A DNA stretch of 64,000 nucleotides from Spirochaetota bacterium (GTDB lineage Bacteria > Spirochaetota > Brevinematia > Brevinematales > Brevinemataceae). A program made the position numbers and the translations under genes. Under the pieces are notes generated by a model that was not told the DNA's origin, did not search any database, and was given only the letters and a program-made list of their open reading frames with translations. Below, piece after piece: positions 21,183 to 56,398 of this stretch; the stretch's first letter is position 1; every line of letters starts with the position of its first letter. Location: contig JAGUQW010000007.1 in NCBI GenBank assembly GCA_030154445.1, positions 62,001 to 126,000 on the forward strand, given 5' to 3'.

Positions 21183-21992
21183 TTAATTTATATTATTTTT
21201 AGCTCGTTTTTTCTGCATTTCTTGAATAGAACTGATCGAAGTACCCCAAGCTCTTTTTGCTGTTTCACTATAATCTCTTTTATAATTAAACATATGATAA
21301 AAATCTACCCCAAAACCCCAAGTAAAATGAATAGCATGATGTGGAACATGAAACTCACCTGTATAAAAATTACTAGGCTCTATCAATCCTGAAGGATCTA
21401 TTTTTCCAGAGTATGGTACTTTAGCATATCCTGCTGTATACTTTAATTCTAAAAATCCAATAAGATAGTCTGCAATAGGAATACGCATTTGTAATGCTAA
21501 TTGCCCTCCAACTCCAGCCACAGTAAAGCTTTTACCACCAGTACCATTATAAACACCATCAATAATAGATTCAGCATGAGCAATAACCATACCAAAGCCT
21601 ATTCTTGCAATTAATTCTATTCCCTTATTCGCATATAATTTATTTGCATAGTTCAAAAGAAATAAATTATATCCATGAGAAATATCAAAATGCTGAATAT
21701 GACTATTTGTATTAATTAAAAATATTTTTTGATGTATCCATTCTAGTTCTATTCCCCATTTATGAGTGCTGTTCCAAATTCCATTTCGAGCAGCCCAATA
21801 AGGAGAATCTTCTACAACTGTAAAAGATCTAGATTCCCATTGAGGATTATAAACAATAGGAGACCCTAGACCATATTCTGTCATCGTAGAGGGTAAATTT
21901 AGATTATAACCCCATAAAAATTCAAAAACTAAATTTGCTCTCGTTGTTATAGGTGAAAAAAATATTATTAACACTAAGATTAAATTTTTCAT
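21183..21992 (-). CDS. Outer-membrane beta-barrel-like protein
   Basis: 269 residues from the ATG at 21992 (GAGG 7 nt upstream; the ATG six bases earlier is too close to the site). A signal peptide (NLILVLIIFFSPITTRA) has a cleavage-type end. The mature protein alternates hydrophobic and polar residues in short strands with many aromatic residues at strand ends (NLVFEFLWGYNLNLP, GIELIARIGFGMVIA, LIGFLELKYTAGYA, HAIHFTWGFGVDFYHMF). This pattern fits an 8- to 10-strand barrel. The family and function are not identified. It precedes a small lipoprotein in the same operon. Confidence 0.7.
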   Translation of the reverse strand: MKNLILVLIIFFSPITTRANLVFEFLWGYNLNLPSTMTEYGLGSPIVYNPQWESRSFTVVEDSPYWAARNGIWNSTHKWGIELEWIHQKIFLINTNSHIQHFDISHGYNLFLLNYANKLYANKGIELIARIGFGMVIAHAESIIDGVYNGTGGKSFTVAGVGGQLALQMRIPIADYLIGFLELKYTAGYAKVPYSGKIDPSGLIEPSNFYTGEFHVPHHAIHFTWGFGVDFYHMFNYKRDYSETAKRAWGTSISSIQEMQKKRAKNNIN

Positions 21993-22082
21993 TGACATAC
22001 CTCATTATATATATGTAACAGTATAAAGGGTTGTATATATATTTGTCAATAAATATATAAATAAATCTCATTAAATACTATA

Positions 22083-22111
22083 TTGACAATTATTATAAAA
22101 TATATTATAAT
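22083..22111 (+). promoter_or_regulatory. Perfect consensus promoter of the pyrimidine operon
   Basis: TTGACA (22083-22088), 17 nt, TATAAT (22106-22111): all twelve consensus bases. Transcription would start near 22118 and run through a leader ORF and a terminator before carA. Confidence 0.85.
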
Positions 22112-22139
22112 AATTAAAATAATTTAAAGAGGAAATTTT

Positions 22140-22208
22140 ATGGATTATAAATCTAAGACATTTACTTATCCTAATATTTTTAATTTTTCTATTTCAAATG
22201 ATTATTAA
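22140..22208 (+). CDS. 22-codon leader peptide of the pyrimidine operon
   Basis: The short ORF starts with ATG at 22140, with AAAGAGG 7 nt upstream (22126-22132), and encodes MDYKSKTFTYPNIFNFSISN plus Asp-Tyr before TAA at 22206. The RNA of codons 7-19 is very rich in U (about two thirds of bases). The stop lies 4 nt before the terminator stem at 22213. A ribosome at the stop codon would cover the left arm of that stem. No amino acid is over-represented in the manner of an amino-acid attenuator, but a U-rich pause region plus translation is how the enterobacterial pyrBI leader senses UTP. The regulatory role is inference from this layout. Confidence 0.6.
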   Translation: MDYKSKTFTYPNIFNFSISNDY

Positions 22209-22212
22209 ATTT

Positions 22213-22242
22213 AAATACCGATTTTCAATCGGTATTTTTTTT
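22213..22242 (+). terminator. Attenuator terminator in front of carA
   Basis: The stem AAATACCGATT/AATCGGTATTT with loop TTC (22213-22237) is followed by a run of T to 22242. It lies between the operon promoter and carA, directly after the leader ORF stop. No upstream segment complementary to its left arm is seen, so a ribosome, rather than an alternative RNA fold, would be the antiterminating element. Confidence 0.85.
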
Positions 22243-22296
22243 ATACTTATTTTCATAAAATAACAAATAATATAAAATAATACAAAGGAATCAACT

Positions 22297-23385
22297 ATGA
22301 AAGCCAAATTGATACTAAGTAATGGTGATATTTTTATTGGAAAAACTTTAGGTTATATTACTGAAACTACTGTGGCTGAGCTAGTATTTAATACTTCTAT
22401 GAGTGGATTTCAAGAAATCATGACAGATCCATCTTATTATGGACAAATGGTTACATTATCTTATCCTTTGGTTGGTAATTATGGATTTAATGCTGATGAT
22501 ATTCAATCAATAGATCCAAAAATATCAGCTTTAATTGTAAAAGAAGATTGTAAATTTCCTTCTAACTTCCGTTGTGAAATGACCTTAAGAAATTATTTAA
22601 GACAATACAAAATTCCTGGAATTAAAGGTGTAGATACTAGAGCTTTGGTTCGTATTATTCGCGAAAATCCAGGTATGACATCTATTATTACAACAAAAGA
22701 TCTTACTCAACACCAAATTCGTACTCTTTGTAGTGAATTTTCCAATAAAGATGCTATCTCAAAAGTTACTTGCAAAGAAAGTTTTGATTTTTCACTTATT
22801 ACCAAAAATACTAGGTACAAAATAGCAGTTATTGATTATGGCGTAAAGCGTTCTATCTTAACTAATTTTACAGAATTAAATTGTGCTGTTCGTGTTTTTC
22901 CTTATACCACAACAAGTTCAGAAATTGAAGAATGGAATCCTGATATTATCTTTTTGTCTAATGGTCCAGGAGATCCATCAACACTTTACAACAAACTTGA
23001 ATTCTTACAACCTTTCTTTGGTAAAAAACCCATTGTCGGAATTTGTTTAGGTCATCAATTATTAACCTTAGCTTTAGGAGGTGAAACCTCTCGCTTGAAT
23101 TATGGACATAGGGGCGGGAATCATCCTGTACTCGATATTTTAAAAGATAAAATATTAGTAACTTCACAAAATCATGGTTATTTTGCTTCTAAATTACCAA
23201 AAGATGTTATAGAAACTCACAAAAATCTTATTGACCAAACAAATGAAGGAATGATGTCTGACAAACTTGGAATCAAATCTGTTCAATTTCACCCAGAAGC
23301 TGGTCCTGGACCAAACGATGGCAAGGTTTTATTTGGAGAATACTTAGATTTTGCAGATAAATTTTATCAAAAGGAAGCTAACTAA
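22297..23385 (+). CDS. carA: Carbamoyl-phosphate synthase small subunit (glutaminase)
   Basis: 362 residues; AAAGGA lies 9 nt before the ATG. The N-terminal half is the CarA-specific domain ([21 protein letters not shown]). The C-terminal half is a class I glutamine amidotransferase with Cys250 in VGICLGHQ and the His332/Glu334 dyad in FHPEAGPGP. It strips ammonia from glutamine and channels it to CarB, the first step of UMP (and arginine) synthesis. It is the first structural gene after the leader/attenuator; its TAA overlaps the carB ATG (TAATGA). Confidence 0.97.
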
Positions 23386-26300
23386 TGAAAAAATTTAATA
23401 AAATTCTTGTTATTGGATCTGGTCCTATTATTATTGGGCAAGCTGCCGAATTTGATTATTCAGGAACACAAGCTTGTCAAGTTCTCAAAGAAGAAGGGAT
23501 AGAAGTAATCTTACTCAATCCCAATCCTGCCACTATTATGACTGACACCTCTTCAGCCGACAAAGTTTATCTCGAACCACTTACGATACAAACAGTAGAA
23601 AAAATATTTATAGAAGAACAGCCTTGTGGAATTTTGTGTAATCTTGGTGGTCAAACAGCTCTTAATCTTGCTATAGAATTATCTGAACATGGTATCCTAG
23701 AAAAATATAATATAGAAATGTTAGGCTCGAGTATTGACACTATCAAAAAAGGGGAAGATAGAGAAATTTTCCGTAATCTGATGAATGAAATCAACGAACC
23801 TATTGTAAAAAGTGAGATTGTTCATACTATAGAAGATGGGCTTAACACAGCTGGACATATTGGTTACCCTGTTATTGTTCGGCCAGCTTTTACATTAGGT
23901 GGTACTGGTGGCGGTATCGCAGATACCCCTGAAGAATTAAAAGAAATTCTAACAAAAGGTCTTATTCTTAGTCCTGTACACCAAGCCTTAATCGAAAAAA
24001 GTATCAAAGGTTGGAAAGAAATTGAATTTGAAATTATGCGTGATCACAAAGGTAATTCTATTTCTGTATGTCATATGGAAAATCTTGACCCTGTAGGAAT
24101 TCATACAGGTGATAGTATCGTCGTTGTCCCATGTCAGACTCTATCCGACAAAGAAATTCAAATGTTACGCTCATCAGCAATTCATATTACTTCAGAAGTT
24201 GGTGTTATTGGTGCTTGTAATGTACAATTTGCTCTCCACCCTGAATCTTTTGATTATATCGTTATCGAAATTAATCCTCGTGTAAGTCGTTCTTCTGCCT
24301 TAGCTTCTAAAGCTTCAGGTTATCCTATTGCTCGTATTGCTACCAAAATATCTATAGGGTATGGATTAGACGAAATTATTAACGAAGTTACTGGAAAAAC
24401 TCCTGCTTGTTTTGAACCGTCATTAGATTATGTTGTTGTTAAAATACCCAAATGGCCTTTTGATAAATTTCCAAAAGCAATACGAACTCTCGGTACCAAA
24501 ATGATGGCTACTGGTGAGGTTATGGCTATAGGGCGTAATTTTGAACATGCTTTTCTCAAGGCTATTCGTTCCTTAGAAATCAATCGCTATGGTCTCATGT
24601 ATCCTGAATCCGAAAATAGAACTATAGATGAATTGAAACAACGTGTAATCAAAGCTGGTGATGATAGAATTTTTGATGTTGCAGAACTTCTTAGAAAAGG
24701 ATTTATGTGGCGTCGTCTCTGCGAATTAACTGGTATTGATTATTATTTTATGGAAAAAATAGATTGGATTGTTCGTCAAGAAGAGTTACTCAAAACATAT
24801 ATTCTTAGTGATCTCACTACCGATCATTTAAGAACTATCAAAAGTAAAGGTTTCTCAGATAAAGCTATTTCACAATTAATGAATGTTGCAGAAGAAGATA
24901 TTTTTGCAAAAAGAAAAGAGCTTGATATCTTCCCTGTGTACAAACCTGTTGATACTTGCGCTGCTGAATTTGAAGCTCTCACTCCCTATTATTACTCTTG
25001 TTATGAAACAGAAGATGAAGTACCTGTTTCTAATAGACAAAAAATGCTCGTTATTGGATCTGGTCCTATTCGTATTGGACAAGGAATAGAATTTGATTAC
25101 TCTGTGGTACATGCTGTAAGAACATTAAGATCAATGGGTTATGAGAGTATCGTTATCAATAATAACCCTGAAACGGTAAGTACAGATTTTGTTATTGCAG
25201 ATAAATTATATTTTGAACCTCTCACCGAAGAGGATGTTTATCATATTATTCTTAAAGAAAAACCAGAATATGTATTTGTACAATTTGGAGGACAAACAGC
25301 TATTAAATTAGCTCATTTCCTTTATGAAAAAAATATTCCTACTGCTGGTGTTGGTTTTGAACAAATTGATCTAGCTGAAGATAGAGAGCGTTTTGATAGC
25401 TTGATGGAAGAGCTAGATATTCCAAGACCCAAAGGTACTAATATCCGCTCTATGGAAGAAGGTATCAAAGCTACTCATGAACTTGGATTCCCTGTTTTAG
25501 TAAGACCTTCTTATGTGCTTGGTGGTGCAGGAATGGAAATCTGTTATTCCATTGAGGAACTCAAAAATTATCTTGCTACTGCTCTTGAACGAACAGACCA
25601 TCCTATTTTAATAGATAAATATCTAAAAGGAATAGAATTAGAAACGGATGCTATTTGTGATGGTGAGGATATCTTTATTCCTGGTATTATGGAACATTGG
25701 GAAAGATCTGGAGTACACTCTGGAGATAGTATTAATATTTATCCAACTCAGCGTATTACTCCAGAAACAGAACAATTAGTAGAAGACTATTGTCGTAAAA
25801 TTGCTCTTGCTATGAATATCAAAGGTCTTATCAATGTTCAATTTGTAATGCATGATAATAAACCTTATGTCATTGAAGTTAATCCTCGTGCCAGCCGAAC
25901 TATTCCCTTTATCGCCAAAGTTACAGGAATTCCCATTATTGATATAGCTACAAAAGTCATGTTGGGCAAAAAATTAAAAGATCTCGGCTATACTAACACA
26001 CATCCAAAAATCAAAGATATTGCTGTCAAAGTACCAGTATTCTCTACTGAAAAATTATCGAATGTAGAAGTAGGACTCAGCCCAGAAATGAAATCTACAG
26101 GAGAAAGTGCTGCAATAGCATCTACTTTTGAAGAGGCACTGTATAAAGGACTTTTATCTGCTCGTAAAAATTATCTTCATTTGGAAGACACTCATATTTA
26201 TTTGTCACTTTGTGAACAAGATCTTGTAAGACAAGAGATTACAGATATATTAAGATCTTTTCCCGCTAATTGTTTGAATCTTAGTGCAGAAGAAAGTACC

Positions 26301-26582
26301 GCTTTGTATTTACAAGAGCAAGGTTTACAAGTACAAGCCTTAAAATCTACTGAAAAAATTGAAGCGAGTATGAAAAATGGTACTTTTAATATATTTGTAA
26401 ATATATCTACAACATCTCGTGATATAGAAAGGAATGAATTTAATTTGAGACGAACAGCTTTGGAATTTGGTTTGGAAGTAATGACTTCACCCGATAGTCT
26501 TAAAGCTTTTTCTATTATTAAAAATGCTAATATTCAAGACTTTACTATAAAAGAATTATTTACAACAATAGGGTATAAATAA
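23385..26582 (+). CDS. carB: Carbamoyl-phosphate synthase large subunit
   Basis: 1065 residues, the normal full length. Two homologous ATP-grasp halves are visible: the first starts with [24 protein letters not shown] and contains [12 protein letters not shown], the second starts near residue 550 with [22 protein letters not shown] and contains [13 protein letters not shown]. Each half carries [15 protein letters not shown]. The C-terminal 120 residues are the MGS-like regulatory domain, which in Escherichia coli binds UMP and ornithine. The protein makes carbamoyl phosphate from bicarbonate, ammonia and two ATP. Overlaps of one base on both sides couple it to carA and pyrB. Confidence 0.98.
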
Positions 26583-27472
26583 TGAAATCTCTTGTTTCTA
26601 TTAATGATATTGATAAAACAACTATTTTAAAAATTTGTTACCGAGCCTTAGAAATAAAAAATCAAAGATTCTCAAAAACACTTTCTGATAAAATTATTGC
26701 ACTTTTATTTTTTGAACCTTCTACAAGAACCAAATTATCTTTTCAAAGTGCTATCTTACGCAGTGGTGCTCATATTCTCAATTTTGAAGCAGAGAACTCT
26801 TCCCTCAAAAAAGGAGAGAGTTTAGAAGATACTATTCAAATGACCAGCTCTTATGCTGATCTGATTATTATTAGACATCCCGAAGAAGGTGCTGCACTCA
26901 GAGCAAAAAAAGTTAGCTCTTGCCCTGTCATTAATGCAGGTGATGGAACAAATGAACATCCTACTCAGACGCTTCTTGATTTAGCAACTATCTTAGAACA
27001 TAATGGATCTTTAGATGGTATTACTATCACTCTTGGAGGGGATTTAAAATATAGTAGAACTATTCCCTCCCTACTCCAAGCCTTAGCACATTTTGATATC
27101 AAAATAATTCTTGCTTCACCTCTGCTACTTGCATTACCTGATCATTTAAAGACTAAATTTCAAGACAAAATAATCCTAGAAACAAACTCCCTCAAAGAAG
27201 GATTGAAAAGTGATTATTTTTATATGACAAGAGTACAAAAAGAAAGAATATCCAGCACTACTGATATTTCATTTGAAGAAGACTGGATCTTAAACAAAAA
27301 TATTTGTGAACAATATGCTAACAAAAACACCAAAATTCTCCATCCTCTTCCTAGAGTTAATGAAATTGCTCTTGACATAGATAATAGTCCTTATCAATTA
27401 TATTTCACTCAAGCAGAAAATGGTGTGTATACTCGTATTGCTTTATTAGAATATATTTTAGGAGTTTTTTGA
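26582..27472 (+). CDS. pyrB: Aspartate carbamoyltransferase catalytic chain
   Basis: 296 residues, a normal length for the catalytic chain. Carbamoyl-phosphate site FFEPSTRTKLSFQ at 43-55, HPTQTLLDLATILEH for the second substrate domain, and the C-terminal HPLPRVNEIALDID. No pyrI-like regulatory chain follows, so this ATCase is probably of the unregulated trimeric (class C) type. It joins carbamoyl phosphate to aspartate, the committed step of pyrimidine synthesis. Translation is coupled to carB (TAATG) and to pyrK (TGATG). Confidence 0.97.
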   Translation: MKSLVSINDIDKTTILKICYRALEIKNQRFSKTLSDKIIALLFFEPSTRTKLSFQSAILRSGAHILNFEAENSSLKKGESLEDTIQMTSSYADLIIIRHPEEGAALRAKKVSSCPVINAGDGTNEHPTQTLLDLATILEHNGSLDGITITLGGDLKYSRTIPSLLQALAHFDIKIILASPLLLALPDHLKTKFQDKIILETNSLKEGLKSDYFYMTRVQKERISSTTDISFEEDWILNKNICEQYANKNTKILHPLPRVNEIALDIDNSPYQLYFTQAENGVYTRIALLEYILGVF

Positions 27473-28230
27473 TGCACTCTATCACTTCCACTATTCTTAA
27501 TATTACACATTTAAGTCCTGATTTGTTTGTTCTTGATATTAATTTCCCTTATCCTATTCAAGCAGGACAATTTATGATGATTAAAATACCAGACAACTCA
27601 AAAATCCTTCCTCGTCCTATTAGTATTTTTAATTACGATCCTCTCACCCATAATTTATCCTTGTTAATTCGAAATCGTGGCAAAGGTTCTAGTGTATTAT
27701 CAAAAATATCTCTTGGACAAAAATTAGATATATTTGGAAGTTTAGGAAAAGGGTTTGATACTAAGATCACTAATAAAAATATTATTCTTATGGGAGGAGG
27801 AGAAGGCATTGCCCCTATGCTCCTCACCAGTGAACTACTCAAAACAAATAATAATGTTTCTGTATTTGCTGGTTTTCGCCATCAAATCGAAGCCTCTACT
27901 TTGGATTATTTTGATACAGATTTACATATTCAATACACAGCACAAGATCATTCAGAAAATTGTTCCCGTGGATTAATTACTGATCTATTAGACGATCTTA
28001 ATGAGCCTGATTATATATATACTTGTGGTCCTATTCCTATGATGAAAGCTATTTATAATAAAGTGCTTCATAAAAAATGGAACACCAAAGTATTTGTCTC
28101 TATGGAGAGTCGTATGGCATGTGGTGTTGGAGCTTGTGTTGGTTGTGTCATAAAAAATTGCGATAATAATTCTATAAAAGTTTGTACAGACGGACCAATA
28201 TTTCTTGCACAGGAGATATTCAATGGCTAA
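27472..28230 (+). CDS. pyrK: Dihydroorotate dehydrogenase electron-transfer subunit PyrK
   Basis: 252 residues from the ATG at 27472, which overlaps the pyrB stop and has GGAG 7 nt upstream. The FAD-binding RPISIFNYD segment (48-56) is followed by GGGEGIAPML and the NAD-site-like TCGPIPMMKAI. A [2Fe-2S] cluster is held by Cys217, Cys222, Cys225 and Cys238 in the C-x4-C-x2-C-x12-C pattern typical of PyrK. With PyrD it forms the class 1B enzyme that uses NAD as the electron acceptor, instead of fumarate or quinones. Its stop lies 8 nt inside pyrD. Confidence 0.96.
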   Translation: MHSITSTILNITHLSPDLFVLDINFPYPIQAGQFMMIKIPDNSKILPRPISIFNYDPLTHNLSLLIRNRGKGSSVLSKISLGQKLDIFGSLGKGFDTKITNKNIILMGGGEGIAPMLLTSELLKTNNNVSVFAGFRHQIEASTLDYFDTDLHIQYTAQDHSENCSRGLITDLLDDLNEPDYIYTCGPIPMMKAIYNKVLHKKWNTKVFVSMESRMACGVGACVGCVIKNCDNNSIKVCTDGPIFLAQEIFNG

Positions 28231-29137
28231 TTTATCTGTTAATTTTCTTAATTATACTCTAAAAAATCCTCTTATTGCTGCTTCTGGAACTTTTGGCTTT
28301 GGAGAAAATTATCAAAAATTTTTTTCTTCTGATGAACTAGGTGGTATGGTACTAAAAGGACTTACCCCTGAAGCTCGTATAGGAAATGATGGAATTCGTC
28401 TTGCGGAAACTGCTTCTGGAATGCTCAATTCTATAGGCTTACAAAATCCAGGTCTTGAATATTTTGAATCTTTTATACTTCCTAGCCTTAAAAATGTTAA
28501 TAATCTCCGTATTGCGAACATCAATGGAAAAAGTATAGAAGACTATGAAATTCTTGCTGCTCGTGCTGATACATGGGAAGAAATTGATATGATAGAATTA
28601 AATATTTCTTGCCCTAATGTAAAAGAAGGTGGAATGGCTTTTGGAACTATCCCCGAAGTAGCTGCTGAAGTTACAAAACGCGTCAAATCATTAATTCATA
28701 CCAAACCCCTTATTGTCAAATTATCTCCAAATGCTATGGATATTGGAGCTGTAGCTATCGCTGTCGAAAATGCTGGTGCTGATGCCTTGTCTCTTATTAA
28801 CACTTTATTAGGAATGGCTATTGATATCAAACAAAAAAAACCAGTCCTAGGAAATGTTTTTGGTGGATTATCTGGACCAGCAATAAAACCTATTGCCTTG
28901 AGAATGTTATGGCAAGTAAGACAACAAACATCTATTCCTATTCTTGCTGGTGGAGGAATTTTTAACGCTACTGATGCTATTGAATTTTTAATGGCTGGAG
29001 CAGATGCTTTGTCCATAGGTACAGCTTTTTTTAGTGATCCGCTTGTTACCCAAAAAATATTAAAAGATTTACAAAATTATATGAATCAAGAGAATATAAG
29101 CTCTCTTCAACAAATTATAGGCATTGCCCATCTATAA
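28223..29137 (+). CDS. pyrD: Dihydroorotate dehydrogenase, class 1B catalytic subunit
   Basis: 304 residues from the ATG at 28223 (AGGAG 8 nt upstream), overlapping pyrK by 8 nt. FMN/orotate motifs: ASGTFGFGENY near 21-30, NSIGLQNPG, ELNISCPNVKEGG with catalytic Cys130, KLSPNAMDIGAVA, LSINTLLGMAID-like LINTLLGMAID, GGLSGPAIKP and AGGGIFNATDAIEFLMAGADA. The catalytic cysteine, rather than serine, and the neighbouring PyrK define class 1B. It oxidises dihydroorotate to orotate in the cytosol. Confidence 0.97.
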   Translation: MANLSVNFLNYTLKNPLIAASGTFGFGENYQKFFSSDELGGMVLKGLTPEARIGNDGIRLAETASGMLNSIGLQNPGLEYFESFILPSLKNVNNLRIANINGKSIEDYEILAARADTWEEIDMIELNISCPNVKEGGMAFGTIPEVAAEVTKRVKSLIHTKPLIVKLSPNAMDIGAVAIAVENAGADALSLINTLLGMAIDIKQKKPVLGNVFGGLSGPAIKPIALRMLWQVRQQTSIPILAGGGIFNATDAIEFLMAGADALSIGTAFFSDPLVTQKILKDLQNYMNQENISSLQQIIGIAHL

Positions 29138-29156: not shown

Positions 29157-29864
29157 ATGACCGCTCAAGAAAGATTAATCGTAGCTTTAGATTTTAAAAC
29201 TGCTAGCGAAGCAGAACAAGTAATTTTAACTTTGGGAGAACATGTTTCTTTTTATAAAGTGGGATTAGAATTATTTTTGAATACTGGAGGATCTATTTTA
29301 GAATTTTTAGCATCTCAAAATAAACGCATTTTTTTAGATCTAAAATTTCACGATATCCCTAATACCACTGCAGCTGCTTCTCGTTTTGCTGCTAGTTTGA
29401 ATTCTGTGAGCATGTTTAATATTCATGCTTCTGGTGGAACTGAGATGATTAAAGAATCTATAGCTGTCAAAAGAGTTGATCAAATATTACTTACCGTTAC
29501 TGTCTTAACTTCTCTTGATGATTCCGATATTATTTTGAATTTTCAAAGTCCTTTAAATGCTTCTAAATTAGCATTAAATTTAGCAAAAAATAGTAAATTA
29601 GCTGGAGCTAATGGCGTAGTTTGTTCTGCTCTTGAAGCTCAAACAATCAAAAAACATTGTGGTGATAAATTTATCACTGTCTGTCCTGGAATTAGATTCA
29701 ATGATTCTAATCTAGGCGATCAAAAAAGAGTCTTAGGACCTAAAGAAGCAATACAAAATGGTGCTGATTATTTAGTAGTAGGACGCCCAATTACAGCAGA
29801 TCCCTCTCCAAAAGATGCTGCTCTAAGAATGTTAGAACAAATATCTCAGGCTTTAATATCATGA
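29157..29864 (+). CDS. pyrF: Orotidine 5'-phosphate decarboxylase
   Basis: 235 residues, 19 nt after pyrD, with AGGAG before the ATG. It has the catalytic DLKFHDIPNT motif (61-70) with the Asp-Lys-Asp tetrad members Asp61, Lys63 and Asp66, the FNIHASGG strand, VCPGIR, and the phosphate-binding YLVVGRPIT near the end. It belongs to the short bacterial (group 1) form and makes UMP, the final pathway step. The stop overlaps the start of pyrC by four bases (ATGA). Confidence 0.97.
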   Translation: MTAQERLIVALDFKTASEAEQVILTLGEHVSFYKVGLELFLNTGGSILEFLASQNKRIFLDLKFHDIPNTTAAASRFAASLNSVSMFNIHASGGTEMIKESIAVKRVDQILLTVTVLTSLDDSDIILNFQSPLNASKLALNLAKNSKLAGANGVVCSALEAQTIKKHCGDKFITVCPGIRFNDSNLGDQKRVLGPKEAIQNGADYLVVGRPITADPSPKDAALRMLEQISQALIS

Positions 29865-31057
29865 CTCTGTTCAAAAATGCCTTACTATCCAGTAATCAAG
29901 TACGAGATATTCTTGTTGACCAGGGTACTATTCAATTGATTAGTCCCTGTATCGATAGTCCTACTGATCATATTATTGCTTGTGAAGGACGACTACTACT
30001 CAGTGGGATGATAGATGGACATGTTCATTTTAGAGATCCTGGATTTCCTCAAAAAGAAGATGCTATGAGTGGAACAAAAGCAGCGTTACGAGGTGGTGTT
30101 ACCTCTATATTAGATATGCCTAACACCTTACCATTGTGTGTTAGTACCCAAGAATTAGCTCATAAAAAGTCTATCTATAGACAAAATTCTTATACAAATT
30201 ATGGATTTCATTTTGGTGGTGATGCAAGAGATAATTCTCTCCAATTTCCTCATCCTTCACAATATGCAGCATTGAAAATATTCTTAAACGAAAGCACTGG
30301 TTATATGCTTGTTACTGATGATAATGTGCTAAATAATCTCTTTTCAAAATCACATTATATAGCTGTTCATGCTGAAGGAGACGCTGTTGATAAAGCTATT
30401 TATTTTGCAAAAAAACATCACAATACGCTTTATTTATGTCATATTTCTCAAGCAGAAGAATTACAACTTATCCAAGATGCCAAAAATAAAAAATTACCTA
30501 TTTTTGCAGAAGTATGCCCGCATCATCTTCTTTTTAACCAAAAAGATACTACAGCACTCCTAACAATGAAACCCAGTCTTAGAAGTAAAAGAGATCAAGA
30601 CATGCTTCTTCAAGCCTTAGACAGTGGATTATTAGATACATGGGGAACAGATCATGCTCCTCATCTTATTTCTGAAAAAGAAACACAACTCACTTATGGA
30701 ATCCCCGTTATAGAATTCGCTCTAGAGCTTTTACTCACTCTAGCCAAAGATATGAATTGGTCTCATCAAAAAGTCGAATCTTTATACTCTAGTATGCCTC
30801 AAAATATTTTTTCTATTACAAAAAAAGGGAGAATTATTGAATCATATGATGCTGATTTTGTTCTTATTGAACAAGATACTTCATATACTATTCATGAGAA
30901 AGATATAGTTTCTAAATGCAATTGGAGTCCTTATCTAGGAAGAAAAGTCACATCAAAAATACATAGTACCTATATAGGTGGAGAAGAAGTATACAATGCT
31001 TCTTCTCAAGAATTCAAAAAATCAAGATATATTAAGGAGATTTCTTATGATAGATAA
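29861..31057 (+). CDS. pyrC: Dihydroorotase, class I
   Basis: 398 residues; the ATG overlaps the pyrF stop. Metal site DGHVHFRDPG with His54 and His56, AALKIFL with Lys139 as the probable carbamylated lysine, His170 (IAVHAEGD) and His194 (LCHIS), and Asp264 in WGTDHAPH. The family's ALRGGVTSILDMPNT segment is present. It cyclises carbamoyl aspartate to dihydroorotate. The deduced length is a little shorter than Gram-positive class I enzymes (about 425). Its end overlaps the pyrE start by 11 nt. Confidence 0.95.
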   Translation: MTLFKNALLSSNQVRDILVDQGTIQLISPCIDSPTDHIIACEGRLLLSGMIDGHVHFRDPGFPQKEDAMSGTKAALRGGVTSILDMPNTLPLCVSTQELAHKKSIYRQNSYTNYGFHFGGDARDNSLQFPHPSQYAALKIFLNESTGYMLVTDDNVLNNLFSKSHYIAVHAEGDAVDKAIYFAKKHHNTLYLCHISQAEELQLIQDAKNKKLPIFAEVCPHHLLFNQKDTTALLTMKPSLRSKRDQDMLLQALDSGLLDTWGTDHAPHLISEKETQLTYGIPVIEFALELLLTLAKDMNWSHQKVESLYSSMPQNIFSITKKGRIIESYDADFVLIEQDTSYTIHEKDIVSKCNWSPYLGRKVTSKIHSTYIGGEEVYNASSQEFKKSRYIKEISYDR

Positions 31058-31667
31058 TACCAAAAAAATCGCTCAGGTACTTTTAGATACCAGAGCAGTA
31101 CGATTGAATGTTAACACTCCTTATATATTTGCCTCAGGTATTAAAAGTCCCATCTATTGTGATAATAGATTTTTATTAGGATTTCCTGACGCTCGTAATA
31201 CTATCATTAATGCTTTTTTAGAAAATCCTCTTGTTCAAGATGCTGAAATTATTGCTGGTACTTCGACTGCTGGAATTCCTTGGGCTGCGATTATTGCTGA
31301 TCATCTCAAAAAACCATTAGCCTATGTAAGAGCAGAAGCCAAGGCTCACGGCGTAGGTAAAACAGTAGAAGGTGCTGAAGTAGCAAATAAAAAAACAGTC
31401 GTTATTGAAGATCTTATTTCTACAGGAGCTAGTTCCAAAAAAGTATTAGACAATTTATTAACTGAAAATGCATTGGTCACTGGCATTGTTGCTATATTTT
31501 CTTATGAATTTCCAGAAGTCACTACTATTTTTGAAAATACTCCTTATCATACTCTTAGTACTTTTTCTACTTTATTACAAATAGCTAGAGAAACAAATAT
31601 GCTTAATGACATAGAATGTTCTATTGCTAGTGCATGGAATTCTTCTCCTCGTACTTGGAAAATATAA
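31047..31667 (+). CDS. pyrE: Orotate phosphoribosyltransferase
   Basis: 206 residues from the ATG at 31047 (AAGGAG 6 nt upstream). The PRPP-binding motif VVIEDLISTGAS spans 118-129; RAEAKAHGVGKTVEG is the flexible catalytic loop, with the KAHG arrangement. ASGIKSPIYCDNR is the orotate-side N-terminal motif. It adds ribose phosphate to orotate, giving OMP for PyrF. It is the last gene of the operon, so the window encodes every step from glutamine and bicarbonate to UMP in one transcription unit. Confidence 0.97.
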   Translation: MIDNTKKIAQVLLDTRAVRLNVNTPYIFASGIKSPIYCDNRFLLGFPDARNTIINAFLENPLVQDAEIIAGTSTAGIPWAAIIADHLKKPLAYVRAEAKAHGVGKTVEGAEVANKKTVVIEDLISTGASSKKVLDNLLTENALVTGIVAIFSYEFPEVTTIFENTPYHTLSTFSTLLQIARETNMLNDIECSIASAWNSSPRTWKI

Positions 31668-33509: not shown

Positions 33510-34640
33510 TTAATAGTTTTCATCATACGATTCATCTTCAGTATATTCTTCAGTAGCTTCTTCTATTACAGCTTCTTCTATTACAGCTTCTTCTATTACA
33601 GCTTCTTCTATTACAGCTTCTTCTATTACAGCTTCTTCTATTACAGCTTCTTCTATTACAGCTTCTTCTATTACAGCTTCTTCATATATAGTAGGAGCTC
33701 CTATCGTTGGAGGAACTGTATCTAATGTAATACTAAAATTATCTGTTGGATTTTGTTTTGTATTAAGAATGTCTACAGGCACAATATTTGACGCTGAATT
33801 CATAGAACCGGATAGCTCTTTCAATTTTTGAGGATTATTCATCATCCCTTGTCTGAGAAATTCTTCTGCTAAATTATCAATAGCAGCATCTGTAGATCTT
33901 TGAGCAGCCAGTGCTGCAGATTGAGCTTCATAAGCACGAATCTGTGCTTTCGTACTAGCACCCTGTTCTCTTAAAAGTCTTTCGGCAGCATTACGAGCTA
34001 AGCGTTCTGTTTTATAATTTTTTTCTGCTGATAATTTTTCAGTTAGTATTTCATCATAACGCTCTCTAGCTAATAAATCTATTTGTATTTGTTTATCTTT
34101 TAGAGTATTGGCTTCTCTCGTCCATTTTTCAGCTTCTGTTCTCCAATATTCAGCTTCCTTAGTCCATTCAGAAGCTTGTTGACGTAATCGCTCAGCTTCT
34201 GATCTAGATTTAGCTGCTAGAACAAGATCTGTATTGACTCTCTCTTTTTCAGTTTGTTCCTGAAGTTGTCCAATTCTTGTAGATCGCATTTTTACAAATA
34301 AATAATCAACAATTTTTTGTTCTCCAGCTTTTGCTGCTATAGTTAATGGTGTAAGATTTTTATTATTAACAACATATACATCTGCACCGTTGTTTATAAG
34401 ATATTCAACACCTGAAAAAGAACCTATAGCCGCAGCATAATGAAGTGGAGTAAATCCGTCAATATCTTGAGCATTAATATCATACCCTTTATCTACAAGT
34501 ACTCTAATCATTTCTATATAACCTTGTGCTGCTGCCCAATGTAATGGTGAATAGTTTGATGACATTGTTTGTGTGGACTGCCCATAAGAACTAGTTGATA
34601 TCAAAAATCCTACAATTGTACATAATACTATTTGTTGCAT
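33510..34640 (-). CDS. Secreted ankyrin/coiled-coil protein with EEAVI repeat tail
   Basis: 376 residues from the ATG at 34640 (AGAGG 7 nt upstream). Signal peptide MQQIVLCTIVGFLISTSSYG. Residues about 25-130 hold three ankyrin repeats (SPLHWAAAQGYIEMIRVLVDKG, TPLHYAAAIGS and TPLTIAAKAGE). Residues 130-270 form a long charged coiled coil rich in Glu, Arg and Ala (EWTKEAEYWRTEAEKWTREA). The C-terminal tail has eight EEAVI pentapeptides from nearly identical 15-bp repeats (33556-33690), then an acidic end. It is a periplasmic or secreted protein for protein-protein contact; its partner is unknown. A second secreted ankyrin gene follows upstream at 34755. Confidence 0.82.
   Translation of the reverse strand: MQQIVLCTIVGFLISTSSYGQSTQTMSSNYSPLHWAAAQGYIEMIRVLVDKGYDINAQDIDGFTPLHYAAAIGSFSGVEYLINNGADVYVVNNKNLTPLTIAAKAGEQKIVDYLFVKMRSTRIGQLQEQTEKERVNTDLVLAAKSRSEAERLRQQASEWTKEAEYWRTEAEKWTREANTLKDKQIQIDLLARERYDEILTEKLSAEKNYKTERLARNAAERLLREQGASTKAQIRAYEAQSAALAAQRSTDAAIDNLAEEFLRQGMMNNPQKLKELSGSMNSASNIVPVDILNTKQNPTDNFSITLDTVPPTIGAPTIYEEAVIEEAVIEEAVIEEAVIEEAVIEEAVIEEAVIEEAVIEEATEEYTEDESYDENY
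33556..33690 (-). repeat. 15-bp coding minisatellite, eight EEAVI units
   Basis: The unit GCTTCTTCTATTACA (plus strand) is repeated eight times with no substitutions in the internal copies. It is inside the C-terminus of the ankyrin gene and keeps the reading frame. Confidence 0.9.
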
Positions 34641-34754
34641 ATCCTTACCTCTTAATACTATCATATTCTTACTATTATTCATAAAGAATCAATGATTTAT
34701 CGGAATTTTTATACAAAAATTAAAATTTTATCTTGTTTTTATTTATATATACTG

Positions 34755-35378
34755 CTATATATTTATTCCAACAACTACACTAGTTGTATCGGGTATTCTA
34801 ATATTTTGTTCTGGATATTTATAATAAGGTACATAAACCCCTATATTAACAAGAAAATCCAATACATCTCTATGAGCATTTTCAGCTGCATATTCTACAG
34901 GATATTTACCAAAATTATTTTGAGTATTTAATTCAACATTTTGACTAACAAGAAATTCTACAATTTCTTTTCTACCTAAACTAGAAGCATAATGTAATAT
35001 TGTATTACCATTGAAGTCTTTATCATTGAGATTAGCTCCATAAATAGCTAATAAAACAATCATTTCGTAGTTATTATTTTGAGCAGCTAATAAAATAGAA
35101 GAATATCCCTGATTATTTTTAATAGAAACATTTGCATTATTTTCAATCAAAAAACGAGCTATTTTAGTATGATTTTTATATAAAGCCCACATCAAAGGGG
35201 TGAAGCCATTTTCATCTCTCGTATTAATATTAGCACCTTGTGCTAGTAAAAACTTGGTATATTCTATATTTCCAGAATACACAGCACCTAAAATATCATT
35301 TGTATTATCTACCTTGTTACTATATATATTAGTGGAGAAATACACAAGAAAAAATAAAATAATTGATTTTTGATACAT
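34755..35378 (-). CDS. Secreted ankyrin-repeat protein
   Basis: 207 residues with a signal peptide (MYQKSIILFFLVYFSTNIYS). AAGGA lies 7 nt before the ATG. Residues 28-180 contain five ankyrin repeats, with TPLMWALYKNHTKIARFLIENNA, SSILLAAQNNNYEMIVLLAIYGA, NTILHYASSLGRKEIVEFL and YPVEYAAENAHRDVLDFLV as the clearest. Since the signal is not of the lipobox type, the protein should be periplasmic or exported. It is co-directional with the larger ankyrin gene at 33510 (115 nt apart). Function unknown. Confidence 0.85.
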   Translation of the reverse strand: MYQKSIILFFLVYFSTNIYSNKVDNTNDILGAVYSGNIEYTKFLLAQGANINTRDENGFTPLMWALYKNHTKIARFLIENNANVSIKNNQGYSSILLAAQNNNYEMIVLLAIYGANLNDKDFNGNTILHYASSLGRKEIVEFLVSQNVELNTQNNFGKYPVEYAAENAHRDVLDFLVNIGVYVPYYKYPEQNIRIPDTTSVVVGINI

Positions 35379-55825: not shown

Positions 55826-56398
55826 TTATAGTGTATTATTAAAATAGTTATTATTATATAATTCCGCAATTTGAGTTAATGATTGATTTCTCTTGTTACT
55901 CAAATCAATGATTGCACCCTCTGAGATCAAATAATCAATTAATATTTTGTTAGAATTATTTCTTACAGCATTAAAAATAGGTGTTTCACCTTCATTATTA
56001 GATCTATTAACATCTGCTCCTAAGCGAATTAATATCTCAATAATAGCCTGATTTTCTGTTAATACAGCTATATGAAGAGGAGTGCATCCATTCATATCTT
56101 GCATATTGATCAACAATCTATCATAAGTTAATGTTGTTTTTATCATGGATATATCTTGAGTAGCAACAGCTAAATGTAATAAAGAAAATTCTTTATTATT
56201 TAATATATAATCTTTATTCGCATCTAAATCATCATAAAAACGATTGTAATCGCAAGGGATTATTGTAGAAGATTGACTTGTTTCTGGATACAAATAATTT
56301 GAAGATATTAATTCATTTTCTGTTTTATTGACATTTTGAGAAAATAAGGTATAATTATAATTATTTGCTCTTATTTCTATTACACAGATAAACAACAC
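55826..56398 (-). CDS. Secreted ankyrin-repeat protein, start uncertain
   Basis: 190 residues from a GTG at 56398 that has no ribosome site and would start inside a hydrophobic stretch. The frame extends upstream to an ATT at 56422 with AAGGAG 6 nt before it; that start gives a complete signal peptide of the form MLKLIYFIVLFICVIEIRA. Residues 65-185 have three ankyrin repeats (FSLLHLAVATQDISMIKTTL, TPLHIAVLTENQAIIEILIRLGADVN, TPIFNAVRNNSNKILIDYLIS). It is the third exported ankyrin protein in the window. The function is unknown. A sequence error or an ATT start are the alternatives. Confidence 0.72.
   Translation of the reverse strand: MLFICVIEIRANNYNYTLFSQNVNKTENELISSNYLYPETSQSSTIIPCDYNRFYDDLDANKDYILNNKEFSLLHLAVATQDISMIKTTLTYDRLLINMQDMNGCTPLHIAVLTENQAIIEILIRLGADVNRSNNEGETPIFNAVRNNSNKILIDYLISEGAIIDLSNKRNQSLTQIAELYNNNYFNNTL

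Follow-up and report, generated by a model that had tools for sequence, protein, structure and literature searches.

To our knowledge, attenuation in which UTP is sensed through the coupling of transcription and translation is known from enterobacteria and related bacteria, and we know of no attenuator of the pyrE kind described in Spirochaetota. In the E. coli pyrBI operon a short dedicated leader ORF, the 44-codon pyrL, contains a U-rich stretch and runs through an intrinsic terminator, and reiterative transcription where the transcript begins adds a further level of control. In the rph-pyrE region of E. coli a complete gene, rph, serves as the upstream frame and control extends to pyrE alone; the frame ends in a TGA that is followed by 5 nt (TTTTT), a 9-bp stem, 8 T and then pyrE. 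This TGA, 5 nt before the pyrE stem, is presumably the wild-type rph stop and lies out of frame with the stop annotated in MG1655. The PyrR attenuators of Firmicutes (RF00515) place a terminator before pyr genes, together with a PyrR loop and an antiterminator, and for Thermus ZO5 a PyrR-gated leader-peptide attenuation has reportedly been proposed, in which translation of the leader ORF would keep the terminator open and the PyrR site lies over the ribosome site.

The position of the stop codon is linked to uracil control of pyrE: a 1-bp deletion in rph of MG1655, which causes a frameshift, lowers pyrE, and control is held to return when the rph stop is brought closer to the attenuator (PMC2784333). 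In E. coli, relocating a stop so that it lay 5 bp ahead of a terminator lowered termination from about 90% to less than 10%, an effect that required translation, while in known amino-acid attenuators the leader stop lies more than 20 bp from the terminator (PMC4824070). A 2010 survey, setting aside the Firmicutes case that it reported itself, regarded leader-peptide attenuation outside Proteobacteria and Actinobacteria as unknown (PMC2965389).

Results

The window, by which we mean the whole 64,000-nt stretch of DNA analysed here, carries eight pyrimidine genes in the order carA-carB-pyrB-pyrK-pyrD-pyrF-pyrC-pyrE on a single strand; neighbouring genes overlap or are separated by no more than about 20 nt. 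The genes were named by NCBIfam families and, although pyrK, pyrC and pyrE scored below cut-off, their matches nevertheless named the expected enzymes:

22297..23385, + strand, carA, carbamoyl-phosphate synthase small subunit, first gene of the operon (TIGR01368, 398 bits; start ATG)
23385..26582, + strand, carB (TIGR01369)
26582..27472, + strand, pyrB (TIGR00670)
27469..28230, + strand, pyrK (best match NF000798, under its curated cut-off)
28205..29137, + strand, pyrD (NF005574)
29157..29864, + strand, pyrF (NF001273)
29861..31057, + strand, pyrC, dihydroorotase (top matches dihydroorotases, under curated cut-offs)
31047..31667, + strand, pyrE (NF001729 and TIGR00336, both under cut-off, TIGR00336 by about 1 bit)

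The ATG at 31047 is the likely start of pyrE; the mechanically called ORF starts at 30978. The gene upstream of the operon promoter is divergent (21183-21998, minus strand), and the following elements were found ahead of carA:

22083..22111, + strand, sigma-70-type promoter (TTGACA 22083-22088, 17-nt spacer, TATAAT 22106-22111; read directly)
near 22118, + strand, predicted transcription start, downstream of this promoter
22128..22133, + strand, Shine-Dalgarno (SD) site AGAGGA of the leader ORF, 6 nt before its ATG (read directly)
22140..22208, + strand, leader ORF of 22 codons plus TAA, peptide MDYKSKTFTYPNIFNFSISNDY
22177..22194, + strand, U-rich stretch TTTTTAATTTTTCTATTT within the leader ORF, proposed region of UTP-sensitive pausing
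22213..22242, + strand, intrinsic terminator (candidate attenuator) with an 11-bp stem, 3-nt loop and 8 T
22284..22289, + strand, SD site AAAGGA of carA (read directly)

The leader 5' of the leader ATG is roughly 20 nt long, and 4 nt (ATTT) separate the leader stop from the stem, whose arms are AAATACCGATT (22213-22223) and AATCGGTATTT (22227-22237), the run of 8 T occupying 22235-22242. The stem contains only 3 G-C pairs; the predicted hairpin energy of -10.6 kcal/mol was equalled in 0 of 200 shuffles.

The comparison within the genus covered three Brevinema genomes, the window's own and two same-genus MAGs (G001 and G002), whose carA proteins are 93% and 84% identical, respectively, to that of the window. 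A common plan of promoter, SD, short ORF, terminator and U8 precedes carA in all three. The promoter stands at the same place (TTGACA/TATACT in G001, TTGACA/TATAAT in G002), the leader ORF is preceded by GAGAGGGA in G001 and AAAGGAG in G002, and it encodes the peptide MYYKYKAFTRSISIVCDSSFSNDF (24 codons) in the former and MAFFCNSLPYPIRLSNKDMAVSKPV (25 codons) in the latter, with 5 nt between its stop and the stem in each genome. The peptides differ among the three species and the changes in length are in-frame. Between the window and G001 the stem with its T run is 97% identical and the ORF 72%, with a 6-nt in-frame indel, and against G002 the corresponding values are 88% and 52%. Selection, as far as three related species can tell, seems to hold the presence of the ORF, its end point and the terminator, and not the peptide. 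A pattern for the terminator allowing up to 2 mismatches gave one copy in each Brevinema genome and was absent from ten other genomes searched. The family member G003 yielded no match for carA and none that was convincing for carB, and among 27 carA loci of other spirochaetes a terminator was called upstream in only four and a leader ORF ending beside one in none.

The original prediction had described a consensus promoter, a ribosome site, a 22-codon ORF and a terminator 4 nt after its stop in front of carA, which can all be read directly, and had taken them for a ribosome-controlled attenuator before the whole operon, a reading that gains from the retention of ORF, stop position and terminator in the three genomes. 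It had also named a U-rich tract, along with the ORF frame and the stem pairing, as a feature to compare in relatives. The tract is clear in the window and in G001 and weak in G002, the T fraction of the 75 nt before the stem being 0.51, 0.51 and 0.33, respectively. The pyrimidine fraction of the same 75 nt is 0.59-0.65 across the three species. Ahead of the carA leader of G002, the contig end carries a unit of about 20 nt (TTCATGGTAGCAGAGCACC) repeated in tandem (L009:3460-3521).

Among the 49 intrinsic terminators called on both strands of the window, an ATG ORF led by an SD site ends beside just one. Dinucleotide shuffles of the leaders yielded an ORF of this type, with an SD site, an ATG start, 15 codons or more and a stop lying 0-8 nt ahead of the stem, in 49, 33 and 23 of 20,000 sequences each for the window, G001 and G002, respectively (0.1-0.25%). 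These frequencies should not simply be multiplied since the three species are related, although the G002 ORF can barely be aligned to the others. With a U content of 0.48 the leader ORF ranks among the top 1% when compared with 66-nt stretches inside genes of the window, a level that was also reached at 4 of 39 gene starts.

Pairing of the left terminator arm with other parts of the leader was no better than in shuffles, so that an alternative hairpin is unlikely. Searches against Rfam returned nothing above gathering score in the window, the leader or its relatives, the PyrR-loop pattern was found in none of the three Brevinema genomes, and the three leader peptides contain no run of a single amino acid and no common residue pattern that could mark regulatory codons. 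Upstream of pyrG (L056) no such leader was seen. Reiterative transcription at the start site was considered as a common feature and rejected, as the AATTTG of G001 lies 10 nt past the -10 element, farther than a start usually does, and G002 lacks one. A leader fold that hides the SD appeared in some best folds, most clearly in G001, and was set aside because leaders without the terminator fold no better than shuffles. A match to the PyrR-loop pattern in the spirochaete G171 (L070) lies inside apparent coding DNA and was taken as chance.

In the window's own genome the PyrR model matched only an HGPRTase and no pyrR was found; the classified phosphoribosyltransferases of this genome are HGPRTase, XPRTase and PyrE, with no uracil phosphoribosyltransferase above cut-off. 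G002 also lacks pyrR. G001 carries a real pyrR (L061:1844-2368, contig C146) beside short-chain dehydrogenase genes, and its product may serve as a uracil phosphoribosyltransferase. Contamination of this contig was suspected; a neighbouring gene on it is 76% identical to a G002 gene, and the contig is therefore probably genuine.

To place the operon, we turned to a tree of CarA, in which the three Brevinema sequences join clostridial ones with support of 99/94, apart from other spirochaetes and even from those of their own order. At 1.22 the stem branch leading to Brevinema is long, which leaves the exact donor uncertain. The tree suggests that carA was probably acquired horizontally, perhaps with the whole operon. 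Six of the seven clostridial loci in the CarA clade (L042, L043, L044, L045, L047 and L048) have a PyrR-loop hairpin in the leader before carA, in the region about 350 nt upstream of the gene. All six have an ORF of 20-46 codons that starts 12-22 nt past the PyrR loop, with the 3' arm of the hairpin forming the SD region of this ORF and the stop falling at the start of the terminator left arm, inside the arm or beyond it. One locus scored 33 bits against RF00515, under the gathering score of 54, and pairing of upstream RNA with the terminator arm was no better than in shuffles in five of the six. This arrangement suggests that PyrR of these clostridia may shut off the ribosome site from which the leader ORF is read, and not act through a classic antiterminator. 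Near codons 4-6 the beginnings of several of the clostridial peptides show FC or IFC (MTIFFC, MTMIFC, MNKFFC and MKKIFC), and the G002 peptide begins MAFFC; this match, noticed post hoc, hints at common descent.

Discussion

Judged by its parts and their spacing, the Brevinema leader is in geometry closest to E. coli pyrE, and not to pyrBI. As in rph-pyrE, where the distance is 5 nt, a reading frame ends 4-5 nt ahead of a short stem with a run of 8 T behind it, a pyr gene comes next and no antiterminator is needed; unlike rph-pyrE, where a full gene lies upstream and pyrE alone is governed, Brevinema has a dedicated ORF of 22-25 codons and eight genes downstream. With pyrBI it shares the short dedicated leader ORF, the U-rich stretch, the intrinsic terminator and the pyr operon, but its ORF stops before the terminator whereas pyrL continues through it, and Brevinema shows no sign of the additional reiterative-transcription control. 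The terminator before pyr genes also recalls the PyrR attenuators of Firmicutes, and the clostridial relatives of the operon have one of these, yet the Brevinema leader lacks both PyrR loop and antiterminator, and the window's own genome lacks pyrR. The PyrR site over the ribosome site that distinguishes the Thermus ZO5 proposal is likewise missing.

We consider it very probable on sequence grounds that the leader is a ribosome-controlled attenuator. The more specific reading that we favour, with somewhat less assurance, is a translation-coupled attenuator that governs all eight genes of the operon and most likely responds to pyrimidine nucleotides by way of the speed of RNA polymerase. Masking of a terminator arm by the ribosome is the natural reading given the position of the stop codon and the improbability of an alternative hairpin. 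The pyrimidine functions of the genes, together with leaders rich in pyrimidines, make UTP the likely input. RNA polymerase would start near 22118 and quickly expose a good ribosome site. With ample UTP a fast polymerase would allow the hairpin to fold ahead of the first ribosome, and transcription would stop before carA. When UTP, and perhaps CTP, is low the polymerase would be slowed in the pyrimidine-rich leader and the ribosome could catch up; at the stop codon, 4-5 nt from the stem, it would cover the left arm and permit read-through into carA. We infer that the leader is translated, that termination occurs in vivo and that UTP is the signal. Coupling would be needed, and a polymerase that outran the ribosomes in spirochaetes would break the model; we know of no test of transcription-translation coupling in spirochaetes.

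The original prediction had invoked UTP sensing of the pyrBI type and had found neither a PyrR gene nor an alternative antiterminator stem in the window. The latter observation extends to PyrR in the whole of the window's own genome and agrees with the pairing results. As for the former, a coupled attenuator is what the leader appears to be, in a geometry nearer to pyrE; since the U tract is weak in G002, UTP sensing by pausing in that tract is inferred, and the sensing element is not demonstrably conserved.

That same weakness gives some room to a translation-coupled attenuator whose input is the general translation or growth state, through ribosome supply or initiation rate, and which acts as a partly open gate following the overall degree of coupling. 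The conserved parts are the SD, the ORF end and the terminator, not the U tract, and in E. coli a ribosome close by is all that is required to repress a terminator near a stop (PMC4824070). We nevertheless regard a general input as unlikely, because every gene under control is a pyrimidine gene, all three leaders are rich in pyrimidines and the pyrE geometry in E. coli is controlled by uracil/UTP (PMC2784333). Chance formation of the ORF, leaving a plain terminator or small RNA between promoter and carA and carA expressed by leakage, would be in keeping with AT-rich DNA, which readily gives weak hairpins and short ORFs, and with peptides that are not conserved; it appears very unlikely when an ORF with SD and stop position is kept in three species through in-frame changes in length, and when such an arrangement is as rare as it is in the shuffles for each species and among the window's terminators.

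Binding of PyrR or another trans-acting regulator to the leader, as in Firmicutes, is suggested by the PyrR-loop hairpin at this place in the clostridial relatives and by the pyrR of G001. We find it most improbable, as neither the window's own genome, where the match is an HGPRTase, nor G002 has PyrR, the loop pattern is absent from the three genomes and the 20 nt or so before the ATG leave little room for a PyrR hairpin. Amino-acid attenuation through stalling at regulatory codons would also place a leader ORF before a terminator, but it can hardly be sustained for three peptides with no residue run or common pattern, a leader without an antiterminator and a spacing of 4-5 nt where the known cases have more than 20 bp (PMC4824070).

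The attenuator, as we read these sequences, is real, conserved in the genus, mechanistically of the pyrE kind and placed before an operon of which at least the first gene was probably acquired horizontally. For its history we offer one scenario tentatively, as possible though doubtful: Brevinema received its pyrimidine operon from a clostridial donor with a PyrR-gated leader-peptide attenuator; the PyrR loop then disappeared, as did pyrR in at least one lineage, while the leader ORF and terminator were kept. Control would thereby have moved from a protein sensor to a race between polymerase and ribosome, giving an independent pyrE-type UTP attenuator outside Proteobacteria that governs a complete pathway. 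If true, this would be a spirochaete case extending over the whole pathway, with a visible clostridial precursor whose PyrR loop occupies the same place; it would make it possible to ask how a switch sensed by a protein turns into one without a protein, and it would imply transcription-translation coupling in Brevinema.

Elsewhere in the window, several ankyrin-repeat-like proteins with apparent signal peptides are encoded at 33510-35378 and 55826-56398, and one ORF in the first of these regions (33510-34682) has a run of EEAVI repeats at its end.
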